Source of the DNA: Bacteroides sp. | Lineage (GTDB): Bacteria > Bacteroidota > Bacteroidia > Bacteroidales > Marinifilaceae | DNA length: 64,000 bases | Reading direction: 5' to 3' | NCBI GenBank assembly: GCA_021771575.1 | Contig: JAETOX010000002.1 | Location: 1 to 64,000 of the forward strand | Part shown: one piece after another, positions 56,198-64,000 of the stretch | Position numbering within the stretch: the first letter of the stretch is position 1 | Layout: every line of letters begins with the position of its first letter | Made by a program: the position numbers and the translations under genes | Notes under the pieces: model-generated | Told to the model about the DNA's origin: nothing | The model's input: only the letters and a program-made list of their open reading frames with translations | Database searches by the model: none

Positions 56198-56992
56198 TTA
56201 AACCACTAGTTTGTATAAAACAAGAAGTGGTATGAATTCGAGGGCACAAAGGTACAAAATCATATACAAAATTGAAACCCTATACGTGAATAATATTTGA
56301 ATCCAACGGGTTATTTTAACAATCGTAAAGAGTATCAAGCTAAATATAACTATCTTAAGTATAGGAAGTACGGCAAAAGACTTCACGAAAAACAGAGCGA
56401 TAACGAAAGGAGAAACCAAAAGTCCGATTAAAATATGATATGTCCATATATTGGCTATGATTTCATTAGCGATAACTTTGGCATTGAAAATCCATCCTAT
56501 TAGCTGAACTAACAAAAGAAGAATAAAATGATAGGCGAAAATTCCTGCGAAAAGATATAAGCTGAATAAAGGAACGAATGTTTGCGATAAAAAAATAGAG
56601 ATACCTGCCGACAGAATAGCAAAAGAGAGACACACAGATAGGAGATAACAAATCAGATTCGAAGAAATGCCTTCGTTCAGAAGTATTTCGGCTTTTTTCC
56701 GTTTGATAAAAGTGAATATAAGATTCGAAAGTAAATCTTTTCCACGAAGACGGACAAAAGCAAAAACACTGAGAAAGATAATGGTGAATATAAGATTTTG
56801 GGTTAAATGTTCGTTCTTTTCCAGGGGCGTATAAGGAAAAGAGGGAGCATTTACCGCAAGGATTTCGAAAGTATCCGTGGATAATTGATGAAGAGGACAC
56901 AAACTATCTTCTTTTTCAGAAAGAAAATATGTTGTATTTATATTTGGCATTTGTAGATGTGTTTTATCAGTGCGCTTCATACCAGTTTTCAC
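56198..56992 (-). CDS. DUF4271 membrane protein
   Basis: A 264-residue (or shorter) inner-membrane protein with about six or seven hydrophobic segments (LIFTIIFLSVFAFVRL, LICYLLSVCLSFAILSAGISIFL, LFAGIFAYHFILLLLVQLIGWIF and others), matching the Bacteroidetes DUF4271 family beside hemD. The function is unknown. The first ATG (56992) overlaps polA by 26 bp; ATGs at 56980 and 56950 are possible alternatives, the last avoiding the overlap. It is probably cotranscribed with polA and hemD. Confidence 0.85.
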   Translation of the reverse strand: MKTGMKRTDKTHLQMPNINTTYFLSEKEDSLCPLHQLSTDTFEILAVNAPSFPYTPLEKNEHLTQNLIFTIIFLSVFAFVRLRGKDLLSNLIFTFIKRKKAEILLNEGISSNLICYLLSVCLSFAILSAGISIFLSQTFVPLFSLYLFAGIFAYHFILLLLVQLIGWIFNAKVIANEIIANIWTYHILIGLLVSPFVIALFFVKSFAVLPILKIVIFSLILFTIVKITRWIQILFTYRVSILYMILYLCALEFIPLLVLYKLVV

Positions 56993-59654
56993 CGAAGCCG
57001 GTACTCACAGTTAAAGGAACCGAAAGTTTGACAATATGCTCCATGCATTGGGTGACCAGACTTTTCAGTAAATATTGTTCGGACTTATGACATTTGAAGT
57101 TTAATTCGTCATGAACCTGAATAATCATCCGTGACAGGAGTCCTTCTTCTTTAATTCGTTTTTGAATACATATCATCGCCATTTTGATGATATCGGCAGC
57201 TGATCCTTGTATGGGGGCATTGATGGCATTTCGTTCAGCCATTCCGCGCACGACTGCATTGCGGGAGTTGATATCCCGAAGGTAACGCCGACGCCCCATA
57301 ATGGTTTCGACATATTGTTTTTTCCGCGCTTTTTCAACGGCTTCTTCCATGTACTTCTTAACTCCCGGGTAGAGCTGAAAATAACCTTCTATCAGTTCTT
57401 TCCCTTCTTTGCGGCTGATATGGAGTCTTTCGGCCAATCCCCAGGCAGAAATACCGTAAATAATACCGAAATTAGCTGTTTTTGCCCGACGGCGCATTTC
57501 AGGGGTCACTTCTTCCAAAGGTACATGATAAATTTTTGAGGCAGTAGCTGTATGTACATCGATGTCGTGATTGAAAGCATTGATCAATTCTTTGTCCTGG
57601 CTTAAATGAGCCATCAGACGAAGTTCTACTTGCGAATAATCGGCAGAGAAGAAAAGATAATCTTTATCGCCAGTGACAAATGCCTTTCTGATTTTTCGTC
57701 CTTCTTCGGTACGGATAGGAATATTCTGGAGATTTGGATTTAAACTACTGAGACGACCAGTAGCTGCTTCGGCTTGATTGAAACGGGTATGAATTTTTCC
57801 GGTTTCCGGATCGATAAAGGTCGGTAACGCTTCGGCATAGGTGGTCAGTAATTTTTTTAGTCCCCGATAGTCCAGTATCTTACTGATAATGGGATGTTCG
57901 TCTTCAAGCTTGACCAACACCTGCTCTGAAGTGCTGTACTGACCGGATTTTGTTTTTTTGTGATTACTGTCGATCTTTAGCTTATCGAAAAGAATTTCAC
58001 CTAATTGTTTTGGTGAACTGATATTGAATTCCTGCCCTGCCGATTCGAAAATTTCTTTTTCGATGATACAGATCCGTTCTTTCAATTCGCTGGAGATAGC
58101 CTTCAGTTCGTCGCAATCGATACTGACCCCTTCGTATTCCATGTCTGCCAAAACAAATACCAGCGGCATTTCGATGTTTTGATATAGAGTCATCAAACCG
58201 GTTTGTTCCAGATCGGCACAGAGTTTCTCTCGCAATTGAAAAATAATATCGGTTTTCTCGGCAAAATCCTGATCGACAGAAATCTCTTCTTCAAACTGCA
58301 AAGTAAGCTGCTGTTCTTCTTTTTTGTCCCCGGCTAACTGATAATTCAGATATTCTAGGGCAACCCGATTCAAATCGTGAGACATATCAGGATGAAGAAC
58401 ATAGTGAGCGATTTTTATATCGAAAATGTCATTTTTCAATTCGATACCTGCTCTTTTCAGCCAGATAATATCGTTCTTTACATCTGCTGAAATCAGGACT
58501 TTATTTTCATTTTCAAAGAGGGGTTTGAATTGAAGGATGATTTCCAGGGCTTGTTGGGGAGAGGCCGGGAGGTTGAGGTAATTGACTTCATGTTTTTGGG
58601 TACAGAAACAAAGCTGGGAAGGCCAGCAAGTATAGAGACTTCCGGATTTGTATACGACATAAAGGGCATACAAATCGGCCTCTCCCAGTTGGGTAATCAA
58701 TTCGATTACTTGTTGGCTCTGATCCTTATAACTGACTTGAATATCGGCTAATTTGGCAGAAGCCTTTTCTTCTACATCGGTGTTCAGTACTCGCCGGGTC
58801 AACGAAAATAGCTCCAGTTCTTTAAAGATAGGTTCCAGCATATTTACATCGATGTGTTTTTTCACGAGATCATCGGAGGTAATATCGGTAGGAACTTCTG
58901 TACAAATTGTGACCAATGTACGGGAGAGATGAACGGTAGGCTGGCATTCTAGCAAGTTTTGGCGCTGCTTGCCTTTCAGTTCATCGATATGGGCGTAAAT
59001 TCCATCGATATCTCCATATTTATAGACAAGAGAAGCTGCACTTTTTGGGCCGATACCGGAGCAACCGGGTACATTATCCGCTGCGTCGCCCATTAAGCCC
59101 AATATATCGATTACTTGGTCCACGCGTTCAATACCGAAATGGTCTAATACTTCCGGAATACCCCAGACTTCCGATTTATTGCCAGAACGTCCTGGTTTAT
59201 ACATAAATACCTTTTCACTGACCAATTGTGCATAGTCTTTATCAGGAGTAATCATATAGACTGTATAACCTTCTTTTTCGGCTTTCTTGGCGAGTGTTCC
59301 GATAAAATCGTCGGCTTCATAGCCGGGAGCGTCGATGCAAGGAATACCCAGTCCGACAATAATTTTTTTGATATAGGGTACGGATTTCCGTAAATCTTCA
59401 GGCATAGGAGGCCGCTGAGCTTTGTAGGGCTCGTACATTTCGTGGCGGAAAGTCGGACCTTCCGGGTCGAAGACCACAGCTATGTGGGTGGGCTTTTCCA
59501 GTTCCAACAGTTCGATCAGGAAATTGCAAAAACCAAAAGTGGCCGATGTATTGATGCCTGTAGTGGTAATCCGCGGATTATTAATAAAAGCATAATACGA
59601 ACGATATATCAAAGCGTAAGCATCTAGCAGAAATAATGTTTTAGGATCGGACAT
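56967..59654 (-). CDS. polA: DNA polymerase I with degenerate proofreading domain
   Basis: An 895-residue PolA. The 5' nuclease domain is intact (LFLLDAYALIYRSYYAF, GYEADDFIGTLAKKA, TPDKDYAQLVSEKV, GDAADNVPGCSGIGPKSA). The polymerase domain is intact, with FFSADYSQVELRLMAHLS, RRAKTANFGIIYGISAWGLA and IQVHDELNF. The middle 3'-5' exonuclease domain (about residues 310-480) lacks the usual exo I DxE motif (ADLYALYVVYKSG stands there), and exo III (YxxxD) reads FAEKT, so proofreading is probably inactive. Function: DNA repair and Okazaki fragment processing. It begins the minus-strand group; the upstream region faces the aromatic leader. Confidence 0.96.
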   Translation of the reverse strand: MSDPKTLFLLDAYALIYRSYYAFINNPRITTTGINTSATFGFCNFLIELLELEKPTHIAVVFDPEGPTFRHEMYEPYKAQRPPMPEDLRKSVPYIKKIIVGLGIPCIDAPGYEADDFIGTLAKKAEKEGYTVYMITPDKDYAQLVSEKVFMYKPGRSGNKSEVWGIPEVLDHFGIERVDQVIDILGLMGDAADNVPGCSGIGPKSAASLVYKYGDIDGIYAHIDELKGKQRQNLLECQPTVHLSRTLVTICTEVPTDITSDDLVKKHIDVNMLEPIFKELELFSLTRRVLNTDVEEKASAKLADIQVSYKDQSQQVIELITQLGEADLYALYVVYKSGSLYTCWPSQLCFCTQKHEVNYLNLPASPQQALEIILQFKPLFENENKVLISADVKNDIIWLKRAGIELKNDIFDIKIAHYVLHPDMSHDLNRVALEYLNYQLAGDKKEEQQLTLQFEEEISVDQDFAEKTDIIFQLREKLCADLEQTGLMTLYQNIEMPLVFVLADMEYEGVSIDCDELKAISSELKERICIIEKEIFESAGQEFNISSPKQLGEILFDKLKIDSNHKKTKSGQYSTSEQVLVKLEDEHPIISKILDYRGLKKLLTTYAEALPTFIDPETGKIHTRFNQAEAATGRLSSLNPNLQNIPIRTEEGRKIRKAFVTGDKDYLFFSADYSQVELRLMAHLSQDKELINAFNHDIDVHTATASKIYHVPLEEVTPEMRRRAKTANFGIIYGISAWGLAERLHISRKEGKELIEGYFQLYPGVKKYMEEAVEKARKKQYVETIMGRRRYLRDINSRNAVVRGMAERNAINAPIQGSAADIIKMAMICIQKRIKEEGLLSRMIIQVHDELNFKCHKSEQYLLKSLVTQCMEHIVKLSVPLTVSTGFGENWYEAH

Positions 59655-59805: not shown

Positions 59806-59836
59806 TTTGGTAAATATCGATTTGTTTGTATATTTG
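59806..59836 (+). promoter_or_regulatory. Promoter of the phenylalanine/tyrosine operon
   Basis: TTTG at 59806-59809 and TATATTTG at 59829-59836 are separated by 19 nt, a full consensus match to the Bacteroidetes primary promoter. Transcription should start near 59842, just before the first leader peptide. Confidence 0.85.
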
Positions 59837-59847
59837 CCTGAACAAAG

Positions 59848-59913
59848 ATGAGAAAGATGAAGTCATTTGAGAAAGCATACTATTTCTATTTTTACTTTTT
59901 CGACAAAAAGTAA
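59848..59913 (+). CDS. Leader peptide 1 (Phe/Tyr-rich attenuator)
   Basis: A 21-residue leader: MRKMKSFEKA, then nine successive Tyr/Phe residues (YYFYFYFF plus flanking), then DKK and stop. The internal ATG at 59857 is an equally good start. Eight of nine residues from 59878 are aromatic, so low charged tRNA-Phe or tRNA-Tyr would stall the ribosome here. The stop codon is directly followed by AGGGCTT, the antiterminator strand. It begins only a few bases after the predicted transcription start. Confidence 0.85.
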   Translation: MRKMKSFEKAYYFYFYFFDKK

Positions 59914-59983
59914 AGGGCTTTCCGTATGACGATAATAAAAATGAATGATATCGATAAGCCCTGAAGTAATTCAGGGCTTTTTT
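59895..59983 (+). terminator. Attenuator 1
   Basis: The terminator is AAGCCCTGAA (59956-59965), loop GTAA, TTCAGGGCTT (59970-59979), then a T run. AGGGCTT at 59914-59920 can instead pair with AAGCCCT at 59956-59962 and so prevent the terminator. A smaller hairpin CTTTTT-CGAC-AAAAAG (59895-59910) overlaps the last leader codons. A ribosome stalled on the Phe/Tyr codons would leave AGGGCTT free, giving read-through; one finishing at the stop would cover it, giving termination. Confidence 0.85.
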
Positions 59984-59995
59984 AATGGCAAACAG

Positions 59996-60088
59996 ATGAC
60001 AGTATATTTTCGATTTAGCAACTGGTTTTACTTTTACTTCTACTTTTATTATACCAAAAGTAGCCGGAAGCTCTGTATATTGTTCTGA
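59996..60088 (+). CDS. Leader peptide 2 (Phe/Tyr-rich attenuator)
   Basis: A 30-residue leader that starts MTVYFRFSNW and continues with FYFYFYFYY, then TKSSRKLCILF and stop. Thirteen of its first 19 residues are Phe, Tyr or Trp. It begins 12 nt after the T run of the first terminator, so it is only transcribed when attenuator 1 is read through. It is followed by a second terminator before pheA. Confidence 0.8.
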   Translation: MTVYFRFSNWFYFYFYFYYTKSSRKLCILF

Positions 60089-60143
60089 GATGTAAACAAT
60101 AGAATGAATGAAAGAAACCCCGGCTAGCACGCCGGGGTTTTTT
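60061..60143 (+). terminator. Attenuator 2
   Basis: The terminator AAACCCCGGC (60115-60124), loop TAGCAC, GCCGGGGTTT (60131-60140) has a T run after it. TAGCCGG at 60061-60067 is complementary to CCGGCTA at 60120-60126 and could act as antiterminator. Unlike attenuator 1, this segment lies within the leader frame, about 8 nt past the last Tyr codon, so the geometry is less clean. Confidence 0.75.
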
Positions 60144-60171
60144 GTTTTGAACGGCAGATAAAAAGAAAGAA

Positions 60172-60987
60172 ATGACAAAGATTGCAATTCAAGGAGTACA
60201 AGGGTGTTTTCATGAACAGGCTGCTCGGTTGTATTATGGGACACATATAGAAGTCTACGAGTGTCTGAGTTTTGAAGCATTATTTTCTGCTTTAGAAAGC
60301 GGAAAGGCGAGCGGAGCGGTCATGGCCATTGAAAATACAGTAGCAGGAGGATTATTGCCGAATTATGCTTTATTACAGAGATACGACAAAAAAATCAAAG
60401 GTGAGGTTTTTCTAAGAATTCAGCAGAACCTCATGGCATTACCGGGACAACGGATAGAGGACTTGACCGAAGTACATTCCCATTACATGGCCATTGCTCA
60501 GACCCGGGAATTTTTTAGACAATATCCCCATATTCGTTTGGTAGAGGCGGAAGATACGGCCCAAAGTGCTGCGGAAATCGCCCATAAAAAGGAAAAGCAT
60601 GTTGGGGCTATTGCTTCAGAACTGGCCGCAGAGCTGTTCGGATTGCAAATTTTACACGAAAGCATAGAAACACATAAACAAAATTTTACCCGCTTTCTGA
60701 TTATAGACGATCATATCCAGATTCCGGAACAAACTATCGATAAAACATCAATCTGTTTTACGCTTCCTCATAAAATCGGGCGTTTATCACAGGTGCTTTC
60801 GATCTTTGCTTTCTATGAATTGAATCTGACTAAAATCCAGTCTTTACCGATACCGGGGCGGGAATGGCAATACTTCTTTTATGTAGACCTGAAATTCAGA
60901 GATTATGGGCGGTATCGGGAGGCGATGAATGCCGTTATGCCTCTTTTAGAAGATATAACGGTCATGGGAGAATATAAAAGTTTTTAG
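60172..60987 (+). CDS. pheA: Prephenate dehydratase
   Basis: A 271-residue prephenate dehydratase, making phenylpyruvate for phenylalanine. The catalytic domain contains KIAIQGVQGCFHEQAARLYYG at the N-terminus, GAVMAIENTVAGGLLPNYALL near residue 50 and the EDTAQSAAEIAHKKEKHVGAIAS block near 125. HKQNFTRFLII is a typical TRF-type motif. A C-terminal ACT domain starts near residue 197 (SICFTLPHKIGRLSQVLSIFA) and ends with a typical ESLPIPG-like motif (QSLPIPGREWQYFFYVD), giving feedback by phenylalanine. No chorismate mutase domain is fused. First gene of the operon, behind two attenuators. Confidence 0.96.
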   Translation: MTKIAIQGVQGCFHEQAARLYYGTHIEVYECLSFEALFSALESGKASGAVMAIENTVAGGLLPNYALLQRYDKKIKGEVFLRIQQNLMALPGQRIEDLTEVHSHYMAIAQTREFFRQYPHIRLVEAEDTAQSAAEIAHKKEKHVGAIASELAAELFGLQILHESIETHKQNFTRFLIIDDHIQIPEQTIDKTSICFTLPHKIGRLSQVLSIFAFYELNLTKIQSLPIPGREWQYFFYVDLKFRDYGRYREAMNAVMPLLEDITVMGEYKSF

Positions 60988-61031: not shown

Positions 61032-62225
61032 ATGATTATTCAACCGGCTAACAGAATAAGGAGTGTCAGAGAATATTACTTTTCGAAAAAATTACGTGAG
61101 ATCGAAAAAATGAACCATCAGGGGGTACAAGTAATTAATTTGGGTATCGGTTCTCCGGATAGGATGCCCCCTCAGGAAGCCGTTTTGGCATTGATGAGGG
61201 GAGCTCAGGATCCTGAGGGGCATGCTTACCAAAATTATAAAGGTCTTCGGGAAATAAGGCAGGCCTTTGCCCGTTGGTATAAAAAATATTATGGCGTCAA
61301 GCTTGATCCGGAAACTGAAATTCAGCCTTTGGCAGGTTCTAAGGAAGGTATCTTGCTGTTGTCTATGGCTTTTCTCGACCGGGGAGATAAAGTGCTGGTA
61401 CCGGATCCGGGGTATCCTGCTTACACATCGGCTTCTCGTTTGGCTGAGGCAGAAGTCATCACGTATGATTTAAAAGAAGAAAACGGATGGTGGCCTGATT
61501 TCGGGCAATTGGAACAAATGGATTTGACTGGAGTGAAAATGATGTGGGTCAATTATCCGAATATGCCTACCGGAGCTCAGGCTACCAGAGAATTGTACGA
61601 GCAATTAGTAGCGTTTGGGTTACGGCATAAAATATTGATTTGCAATGATAATCCTTATAGTTTTATTTTGAATCACGAGCGGTTGAGTATATTGAGCATC
61701 ACCGGGGCGAACGCCTGTTGTGTCGAATTGAATTCCTTGAGTAAAGCGCATAATATGTCGGGCTGGCGCATCGGTATGATAGCCGGAGAAGCCGATGTGA
61801 TCGCCCAGGTTTTGAAGGTAAAAAGTAATATGGATTCGGGTATGTTCAAACCCTTGCAATTAGCTGCCATAGAAGCATTGGCACAAGATGATGGCTGGTA
61901 TGAGCAGCTCGATGAAGAATATCGGAAAAGACGAAAACTGGCAGGGGCAATTTTTGATTTGTTGGATGTGAAATACGATGCCTGTTGCGGGGGAATGTTT
62001 TTATGGGGAAAAATCGGAGAGGAAGAAGAGAGCGGAGAAAAGTTATCCGATCGGATACTGCAACGAGCCCGGGTATTCATTACTCCCGGATTTATTTTCG
62101 GGAAAAACGGAAACCGTTACATCCGGATTTCGTTGTGTTCAAAACAGGAAGTGTTGAAAGAGGCTGCTGAACGGATTCGAAAATCTCTGCTGACCGATTC
62201 TTTTGAACACGGATCATGGTGTTAA
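61032..62225 (+). CDS. Class I/II pyridoxal-phosphate aminotransferase (aromatic)
   Basis: A 397-residue fold-type I aminotransferase. PLP-binding residues are visible: NLGIGSPDRMPP near residue 36, LAGSKEGILLLSMAFLD, NYPNMPTGAQAT, CNDNPYSFIL and the Schiff-base lysine in ELNSLSKAHNMSGWRIGM near residue 237. GNRYIRISLC carries the substrate-binding Arg. The place between pheA and tyrA indicates it transaminates phenylpyruvate and hydroxyphenylpyruvate, or prephenate itself; the substrate is inferred. The 44-bp gap to pheA has no terminator. Confidence 0.92.
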   Translation: MIIQPANRIRSVREYYFSKKLREIEKMNHQGVQVINLGIGSPDRMPPQEAVLALMRGAQDPEGHAYQNYKGLREIRQAFARWYKKYYGVKLDPETEIQPLAGSKEGILLLSMAFLDRGDKVLVPDPGYPAYTSASRLAEAEVITYDLKEENGWWPDFGQLEQMDLTGVKMMWVNYPNMPTGAQATRELYEQLVAFGLRHKILICNDNPYSFILNHERLSILSITGANACCVELNSLSKAHNMSGWRIGMIAGEADVIAQVLKVKSNMDSGMFKPLQLAAIEALAQDDGWYEQLDEEYRKRRKLAGAIFDLLDVKYDACCGGMFLWGKIGEEEESGEKLSDRILQRARVFITPGFIFGKNGNRYIRISLCSKQEVLKEAAERIRKSLLTDSFEHGSWC

Positions 62226-62242: not shown

Positions 62243-63082
62243 ATGCAAGTTGGAATAGTAGGAGTAGGATTGATCGGAGGCTCGATGGCCGTAGATCTGA
62301 AAAGACGTGGGTTTGCCGATCAGGTGGTTGGAGTGGAAAATGATGCTCTTCACGCCGTGGCGGCCCGCGATCTGGGATTGGTGGATGAGATAGTGAGTTA
62401 CGAAGAATGTATAGCTACGAGCGATATTATTGTGGTAGCCGTCCCGGTGAGCGTAGCGATCCGTATGATTCCGGACATGCTGGACCGGGTAGACCGTCAA
62501 ATTGTGACTGATGTATGCTCTACGAAAGAAAAGATCAACGAGGTAGTTCGTTATCACCCCCATCGTAAAAATTTTGTTGCGGCTCATCCCATGGCAGGTA
62601 CGGAATATTCAGGTCCTTGGGCTGCCTTGCCGGGATTATTTGATGGCAAAGCTGGGATCATTTGCAATCCCGAAGATTCCGACCTACAGGCTGTGGAATT
62701 AATCAGACAGATGTATGATTGTTTGAATATGAGAGTTATCTTTATGCGCGCGGCGCATCATGATGTGCATACCGCTTATGTCTCTCATATTTCTCATATT
62801 ACCTCATTTGCTTTGGCTTTGACGGTATTGGAAAAAGAAAAAAATGAGAAGAATATTTTTGATTTGGCTTCCGGAGGTTTTTCTTCGACAGTTCGTCTGG
62901 CGAAAAGCAATCCCGATATGTGGGCACCGATATTTTCTCAGAACAGAGAAAATATTCTGACCGTATTGGAGACTTACATTGAAAAATTGCACGAATTCAG
63001 ACAACAAATAGCTCAATACGATGAGGATGGATTGAAACAACTGATTTACAAAGCAAATAAGATAAAACGAATCATTCGATAA
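62243..63082 (+). CDS. tyrA: Prephenate dehydrogenase
   Basis: A 279-residue NAD(P)-dependent prephenate (or arogenate) dehydrogenase. The Rossmann start is VGIVGVGLIGGSMAVDLKRRG, followed by DIIVVAVPVSVAIRMIP and the catalytic-domain motif HPMAGTEYSGPWAALPGLFDG. The helical C-terminal dimer domain is intact (HDVHTAYVSHISHITSFALAL). No ACT or chorismate mutase domain is fused. It lies 17 bp after the aminotransferase and 17 bp ahead of the DAHP synthase gene. Confidence 0.95.
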   Translation: MQVGIVGVGLIGGSMAVDLKRRGFADQVVGVENDALHAVAARDLGLVDEIVSYEECIATSDIIVVAVPVSVAIRMIPDMLDRVDRQIVTDVCSTKEKINEVVRYHPHRKNFVAAHPMAGTEYSGPWAALPGLFDGKAGIICNPEDSDLQAVELIRQMYDCLNMRVIFMRAAHHDVHTAYVSHISHITSFALALTVLEKEKNEKNIFDLASGGFSSTVRLAKSNPDMWAPIFSQNRENILTVLETYIEKLHEFRQQIAQYDEDGLKQLIYKANKIKRIIR

Positions 63083-63099
63083 TAGTAAAAACATACGAT

Positions 63100-64000
63100 A
63101 TGACAGCAACAAAATTAGATTTGATTCCGGCAGAGAAATGGGGACTTTTTCCTGACATGACAAAGCCTGTTGTCATTGCCGGGCCTTGTAGTGCAGAAAG
63201 CGAGCAGCAAATTTTCGAAACGGCCAGAGGTTTGAAGGCTGTAGGAATAGGAATCTTACGGGCAGGGATCTGGAAACCGCGCACCCGGCCTAATTGTTTT
63301 GAAGGGGTAGGAGCGGAAGGGTTGATCTGGATGAAACGGGTACAGCGGGAACTGGGGATGAAAATTTCAACGGAGGTAGCGAATGTCAAACATGTATACG
63401 AAGCTTTGAAAGCAGGCATGGATATGTTGTGGGTTGGTGCCCGTACCTCTGCTAATCCCTTTGCTATGCAGGAGATTGCCGATGCACTGAAAGGTACCGA
63501 TATTCCGGTTTTGGTCAAGAATCCTGTCAATCCGGATGTGGAATTATGGATCGGGGCATTGGAGCGTTTGAATATGGCCGGTTTGAAAAAGATTGGTGTT
63601 ATTCACCGGGGTTTTTCTGCCTATAGCAAATCCCGTTACCGGAATGTGCCCCAATGGCAACTGCCGATAGAGATTAAACGCCGTTTTCCCGGAATGTTGA
63701 TGATCTGTGATCCCAGTCACATTTCAGGAAAGCGGGAATATCTATACGAAATTTCTCAACAAGCGATGGATTTGGGTTTTGATGGCTTGATCGTTGAATC
63801 CCATATTTGTCCTGAAATTGCCTTGAGCGATGCTGCGCAACAACTTACACCCGTTGCTTTAGAAGAATTATTAAAGAAACTAGTCATTCGGAAGGTAGAT
63901 TCCGAAAATCTCCGATATAAGGAAAATATAGATGAATTACGTGCCCGGATCGATATGATAGACAATGAATTGTTAGAACTTTTGGCTAATCGAATGAAAA
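63100..64000 (+). CDS. DAHP synthase fused to type II chorismate mutase (end cut by window)
   Basis: About 300 codons are open from 63100 to the window edge. Residues 1-255 form a class I DAHP synthase of the KDO8P-synthase-like branch: KPVVIAGPCSAESEQQ, GILRAGIWKPRTRPN, KISTEVANVKHVYEAL, VLVKNPVNPDV and MICDPSHISGKREYL. From about residue 268 a chorismate mutase (AroQ) domain begins: RYKENIDELRARIDMIDNELLELLANRM, cut off by the edge. Fusion of the two allows allosteric control of DAHP synthase and feeds prephenate to PheA and TyrA. It is the fourth gene of the operon and supplies the mutase missing from pheA and tyrA. Confidence 0.95.
   Translation, partial: MTATKLDLIPAEKWGLFPDMTKPVVIAGPCSAESEQQIFETARGLKAVGIGILRAGIWKPRTRPNCFEGVGAEGLIWMKRVQRELGMKISTEVANVKHVYEALKAGMDMLWVGARTSANPFAMQEIADALKGTDIPVLVKNPVNPDVELWIGALERLNMAGLKKIGVIHRGFSAYSKSRYRNVPQWQLPIEIKRRFPGMLMICDPSHISGKREYLYEISQQAMDLGFDGLIVESHICPEIALSDAAQQLTPVALEELLKKLVIRKVDSENLRYKENIDELRARIDMIDNELLELLANRMK

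Follow-up and report, generated by a model that had tools for sequence, protein, structure and literature searches.

The locus described here raises the question of how a member of the Bacteroidales sets the expression of its phenylalanine and tyrosine genes, and what it means that two control devices appear to stand one behind the other in front of them. As read from the sequence, the 366-nt leader ahead of pheA-aminotransferase-tyrA-DAHP synthase contains two full units in series under one promoter, each consisting of a leader peptide with F/Y codons, an antiterminator strand and an intrinsic terminator. In the window (the whole 64,000-nt stretch of DNA that was analysed; features are on its forward strand unless otherwise noted), polA lies upstream of the leader on the other strand (56967-59654), so the leader opens a new transcription unit. 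The promoter that the original prediction placed at the start of the unit is present and is of the Bacteroidota type (59806-59836), with TTTG at 59806-59809, a 19-nt spacer and TATATTTG at 59829-59836; from the promoter type the transcript would be expected to start at about 59841-59843, near 59842. Over 194 loci, the motif TAnnTTTG occurs preferentially 50-90 nt ahead of the point where the F/Y run of the first unit ends, and the tandem loci scanned have no such motif between unit 1 and leader 2. A separate promoter for leader 2 was ruled out on this ground, and the transcript must thus pass both terminators.

The predicted gene order agrees with the NCBIfam assignments. The prephenate dehydratase gene pheA (60172-60987) matches PRK11898 with an E-value of 1.2e-55, which is below the curated cut-off; it is followed by a class I/II aminotransferase (61032-62225), probably an aromatic aminotransferase as judged from the operon context, by the prephenate dehydrogenase gene tyrA (62243-63082; PRK08507, above cut-off) and by a DAHP synthase that runs off the window (63100-63999). 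In its C-terminal part, the sequence of the latter resembles the beginning of a chorismate mutase domain.

Leader peptide 1, MKSFEKAYYFYFYFFDKK, contains 5 Phe and 4 Tyr among its 18 codons (59857-59913). The Phe/Tyr-rich frame was correctly recognised in the original prediction, where it was given as 59848-59913 (MRKMKSFEKAYYFYFYFFDKK), but its start is probably at 59857, as five relatives begin at an ATG aligned with this position (MKSF or MKPF). The ATG at 59848 is in frame and is seen only in the window's genome among six Odoribacter-type genomes; if used, it would give an almost leaderless message with about 6 nt ahead of the start codon. Hairpin 1:2 (59891-59900 with 59905-59914) is built from the last F/Y codons together with the final part of the frame. 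Region 2, the antiterminator strand AGGGCTT (59914-59920), lies directly 3' of the stop codon (59911-59913) and pairs over 7 nt with AAGCCCT (59956-59962). The terminator (59956-59983), found in the sequence and in relatives, is made up of region 3 (59956-59965), region 4 (59970-59979) and a U-run (59978-59983). When the unit was folded with the ribosome footprint masked, the probability of 2:3 pairing, an equilibrium value for a switch that is kinetic, was 0.98 for a ribosome stalled at 59896-59899 and 0.00 for a ribosome at the stop codon, i.e. in the replete state the ribosome would hide the antiterminator strand. Hairpin 1:2 shares only one base with strand 2, and super-termination in the absence of translation, as in E. 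coli trp, is therefore not expected.

Leader peptide 2, MTVYFRFSNWFYFYFYFYYTKSSRKLCILF (59996-60088), has 7 Phe, 6 Tyr and 1 Trp among 30 codons and is seen both in the sequence and in the alignment. Folding gives hairpin 1:2 at 60040-60063 (60040-60047 with 60056-60063), and the pairing analysis places region 2, TAGCCGG (60061-60067), within the leader frame, where it matches CCGGCTA (60120-60126) over 7 nt. The terminator (60113-60143; sequence and relatives) pairs 60113-60124 with 60131-60142, with the core of region 3 at 60120-60126 and a U-run to 60143. The frame of leader 2, both terminators and both 7-nt antiterminator matches are thus where they had been predicted to be. By the same masked folding, the 2:3 probability is 0.95-0.98 when the ribosome is stalled at 60041-60047. 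The second unit had been called less neat, and this is borne out by the leader-2 stop codon, which lies about 18 nt beyond the antiterminator strand; with a ribosome at this site, strand 2 comes to lie at the rear margin of the footprint, and the 2:3 probability is 0.84 if strand 2 is exposed. The predicted masking of strand 2 in the replete state is therefore borderline, and the off state would be less clear than that of unit 1. In two of the relatives (G030 and G068) the leader-2 stop is directly behind strand 2 and the masking problem is absent.

The antiterminator 2:3 and the terminator 3:4 are mutually exclusive, and this exclusivity is maintained by compensating changes. In 41 single-unit relatives, 97.2% of the cells of hairpin 1:2 are paired, with 19 double-change cells (0 of 500 shuffles), and the corresponding values are 97.1% for 2:3 and 98.1% for 3:4, as compared to at most 60% in slid controls. 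At equilibrium 3:4 wins in all full-length folds. In 78% of 220 units, the spacer (strand 2) pairs with terminator strand 3 better than in 95% of shuffles. There are 121 distinct 2:3 helices among 172 units, and as they vary from clade to clade, both partner strands change together. Across the phylum, the distance from the last F/Y codon to the start of strand 2 is about 6-17 nt, with a median of about 12, and given the size of the ribosome footprint, this is where a ribosome stalled on that codon has its front edge. Strand 2 ends in one of two ranges, 5-15 nt beyond the stop codon or 5-20 nt short of the end of the frame. Pairing within a unit was stronger than pairing across units in 48 of 52 comparisons, which indicates that the two units are largely insulated from each other.

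Both units are present in all six genomes of the tandem alignment, i.e. the Odoribacter-type genomes consisting of the window's own, G005, G002, G007, G030 and G068, three of which recur as L031-L033; the order of the units is the same and their spacing is similar. Each codon of the leader 1 F/Y run is aromatic in all six species, while third positions swap freely between T and C, and the F/Y exchanges that occur within the run always retain an aromatic residue. The run of leader 2 departs from this at a few codons, which encode D in G007, H and C in G030 and C in G068. An instructive case is unit 1 of G007, where strands 2, 3 and 4 read GGGGGCTT, AGAGCCCCGA and TCGGGGCTTT, as opposed to AGGGCTT, AAGCCCTGA and TCAGGGCTT in most others, so that the two forms differ by a single joint change across the three strands. 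The comparison with close relatives that was proposed as a check thus found aromatic runs and stems kept in all six tandem genomes, compensating changes included.

The units are by no means confined to this group. We scanned 650 nt upstream of pheA homologues for a short F/Y-rich frame with an intrinsic terminator behind it, and at least one unit was found in 196 of 217 Bacteroidota loci, where the total refers to loci rather than species, near-identical genomes being present twice with two collections used (e.g. L002 = L032). Two units were found in 32 loci, a lower bound, as weak first leaders were missed in marine relatives (L017-L019 and L029 show the first terminator). A single unit is the normal arrangement across Bacteroidota, and serial doubling is a recurrent variant. 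The pheA tree requires 11 changes between tandem and single arrangements, at least 7 of them being forced by well-supported branches, although the count may be overstated because the scan misses weak first leaders; the serial arrangement thus appears to have been gained or lost several times in Bacteroidota. A near relative, an Odoribacter sp. MAG (L006), has one unit that resembles unit 2, so that unit 1 may be a later addition. As to unit 1 being a recent copy of unit 2, the sequences following the runs are mostly no more alike within than between loci. On a different note, pheA matches were not found in G001, G003, G004, G006, G019 and genus g10, which belong to the same genus or family and include some incomplete drafts; judging from these genomes, Phe synthesis looks patchy in the family.

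If the leaders sense amino acids, their codons should follow the genes downstream. Where pheA occurs without an aminotransferase, tyrA or DAHP synthase gene, the run never has more than one Tyr codon (11 of 11 loci, which belong to four families by group code), and where it occurs with any of these genes, at least two Tyr codons are present in 120 of 122 loci (Fisher 2e-14). The association holds in four out of four independent pairs on the pheA tree (p 0.125, four pairs being too few for significance). In the F-only genomes, a separate aminotransferase-tyrA-DAHP synthase operon bears F/Y(W) leaders of its own (L233-L241), and two units are seen where the flanking sequence is long enough, e.g. 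MKTFGTYFYYFWYFYYPQR and then MNSTGLAFRYYYFYFWYNNDRAGCLIPNFK in L233. In several genomes (e.g. G018, G029 and G012) trpE is located close to this separate operon, on the other strand. Analogous leaders, again followed by terminators, are found before trpE in 19 of 27 Bacteroidales relatives (Trp runs, mostly WWW; L244-L270, two units in L265) and before hisG in 27 of 30 relatives (His runs; L274-L303, two units in L275 and L289). A cross-table of gene versus leader type pairs none of the F/Y, W and H runs with a gene of another pathway. The leader codons match the product of their own operon, as attenuation requires, and the joint sensing of Phe and Tyr suggested in the original prediction gains support from the way in which the codons track gene content. 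A run of five His codons was not found in the window's own genome; this draft (97.8% complete) has no hisG match, and its trpE-family matches are partial and weak. Possibly the organism is auxotrophic for His and Trp.

We consider it highly likely that two ribosome-mediated attenuators in series, behind one promoter, set the Phe/Tyr operon according to the supply of charged tRNA-Phe and tRNA-Tyr. A ribosome stalled in the F/Y run would cover strand 1 and free strand 2, which would pair with strand 3 before strand 4 has been transcribed; no terminator would form, and RNA polymerase would continue. A ribosome that finishes the leader would cover or sequester strand 2, leaving strands 3 and 4 to form the terminator and stop transcription. 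Each unit would then be an OR sensor, responding to a shortage of Phe or of Tyr. Passing two terminators in turn would require two stalls for a full-length mRNA, i.e. the series would act as an AND gate, and read-through, being the product of the two units, should respond more steeply and over a wider range than with one unit. The anatomy, its conservation and covariation, the placing of strand 2 relative to the ribosome edge and the agreement between codons and operon are observed features of the loci. Stalling, termination at each site, the response to Phe and Tyr and the multiplicative effect are the behaviour that we would expect from them.

It is necessary to weigh this serial attenuation against simpler readings. 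The region is A+T-rich, F and Y codons are T-rich, and one could argue that low-complexity DNA reads as F/Y by chance while A+T-rich intergenic DNA yields terminators. However, not one of 1085 dinucleotide shuffles of the 217 upstream regions yields a unit, as compared to the 196 real regions, and the reverse-strand control gave a unit in only 12 of 1681 stretches, none with F/Y in at least 7 of 8 positions. Within the window's genome, no other run of seven F/Y codons lies in a short leader frame with a terminator; one such run does overlap a terminator, yet it reads into a long gene. A chance origin was rejected on the basis of the shuffles and its probability is practically nil. It is also conceivable that a riboswitch, a T-box or an RNA-binding protein runs the terminators and that the F/Y codons are incidental, as terminator/antiterminator pairs are common to all such systems. 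We find this hardly credible, given that the Rfam search of the leader returned no riboswitch or T-box at gathering scores or among sub-threshold matches, that the codon content shifts with the operon, and that the F/Y identity is retained while third positions vary.

Serial attenuation has further competitors that accept the leaders as functional. One is that a single unit regulates, most likely unit 2, and that unit 1 is a bystander or a constitutive terminator whose leader has decayed; the single-unit relatives, which retain a leader like leader 2 (RFS, then an F/Y run), would fit such a scheme, as would the weak first leaders of the marine relatives that the scan partly missed. We hold this to be rather unlikely here, since unit 1 is intact, is conserved at least as well as unit 2 in the six species, changes jointly in strands 2, 3 and 4 in G007 and has the cleaner predicted switch of the two. 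The leaders might also act on translation or in trans, with peptides or released leader RNAs as regulators instead of attenuation in cis. Termination in the leader would set free two small RNAs as well as peptides, and a trans role of a Trp leader peptide has been published for Sinorhizobium peTrpL (PMC7298713). As a replacement for attenuation in cis this is very improbable, since 2:3/3:4 alternatives placed at the ribosome edge and codons matching the genes directly downstream are needs of cis attenuation and not of trans action; a trans role could exist in addition to it.

Returning to the two attenuators in series, several consequences can be pointed out. Judging from the leaders described above, leader-peptide attenuation very probably governs the amino-acid operons of a dominant gut phylum, and the leaders can be read as labels (F, F+Y, W, H) that predict operon function in uncultured species. 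Bacteroidota make little use of Shine-Dalgarno starts. If attenuation is a standard control, transcription and translation must be closely coupled, which implies that the ribosome keeps close to RNA polymerase in bacteria with few Shine-Dalgarno starts, and the present leader offers a defined site for testing this. The repeated gain or loss of the second unit is in turn a natural comparison of one versus two checkpoints. We see about an even chance for the most general reading, namely that serial attenuators are multiplicative AND gates that evolved repeatedly in Bacteroidota, where Phe/Tyr, Trp and His operons are as a rule controlled by attenuation and coupling must be close.

Finally, it is instructive to compare the locus with known systems. 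Like the enterobacterial pheA and trp/his attenuators, it has leader peptides rich in the regulated amino acid, the 1:2, 2:3 and 3:4 pairings, a terminator and an adjoining biosynthetic operon. It differs from them in having two units in series, a mixture of Phe and Tyr codons and a Bacteroidota promoter, and in unit 1 the switching off must be accomplished by stop-codon masking rather than by the 1:2 hairpin. The Rfam family Phe_leader (RF01859) aligns with unit 1 at full length with 34.1 bits (E 4.6e-4) and with unit 2 with 22.3 bits; both stay below the gathering threshold of 55 bits, so the locus is not filed in that family. A Flavobacterium psychrophilum transcriptome study (PMC9723704) reports 'strong clues' that amino-acid operons are preceded by leader-peptide attenuators, together with a structured 5' element at pheA that is conserved among Flavobacteriaceae; the relevant passages contain no tandem, no Bacteroidales and no codon-operon match. 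In Bacteroides thetaiotaomicron, long 5' UTRs with leader-like short frames have been described, e.g. BT_4401 (PMC7366714); pheA is absent from the main text of that report, and no mechanism is worked out. The tandem had been called unusual in the original prediction. The series turns out not to be peculiar to this locus, and attenuation is very probably the rule in the phylum; what stands is that the literature searched, largely without subscription journals, yielded no description of serial leader-peptide attenuators for an amino-acid operon or in Bacteroidales. The class of attenuator is thus known and was already suspected for Flavobacterium pheA, and the new element is the serial arrangement in an amino-acid operon.

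A close parallel in architecture is the Salmonella mgtCBR operon, which has two attenuators within one leader (PMC3641672), in both cases with two short frames and two terminator/antiterminator sets in a single transcript leader. The mgtCBR operon serves virulence and Mg2+ transport, whereas the operon described here makes the very amino acids that its leaders would sense. The two frames of mgtCBR reportedly answer different signals, ATP and proline-tRNA, whereas here both leaders carry Phe and Tyr codons.
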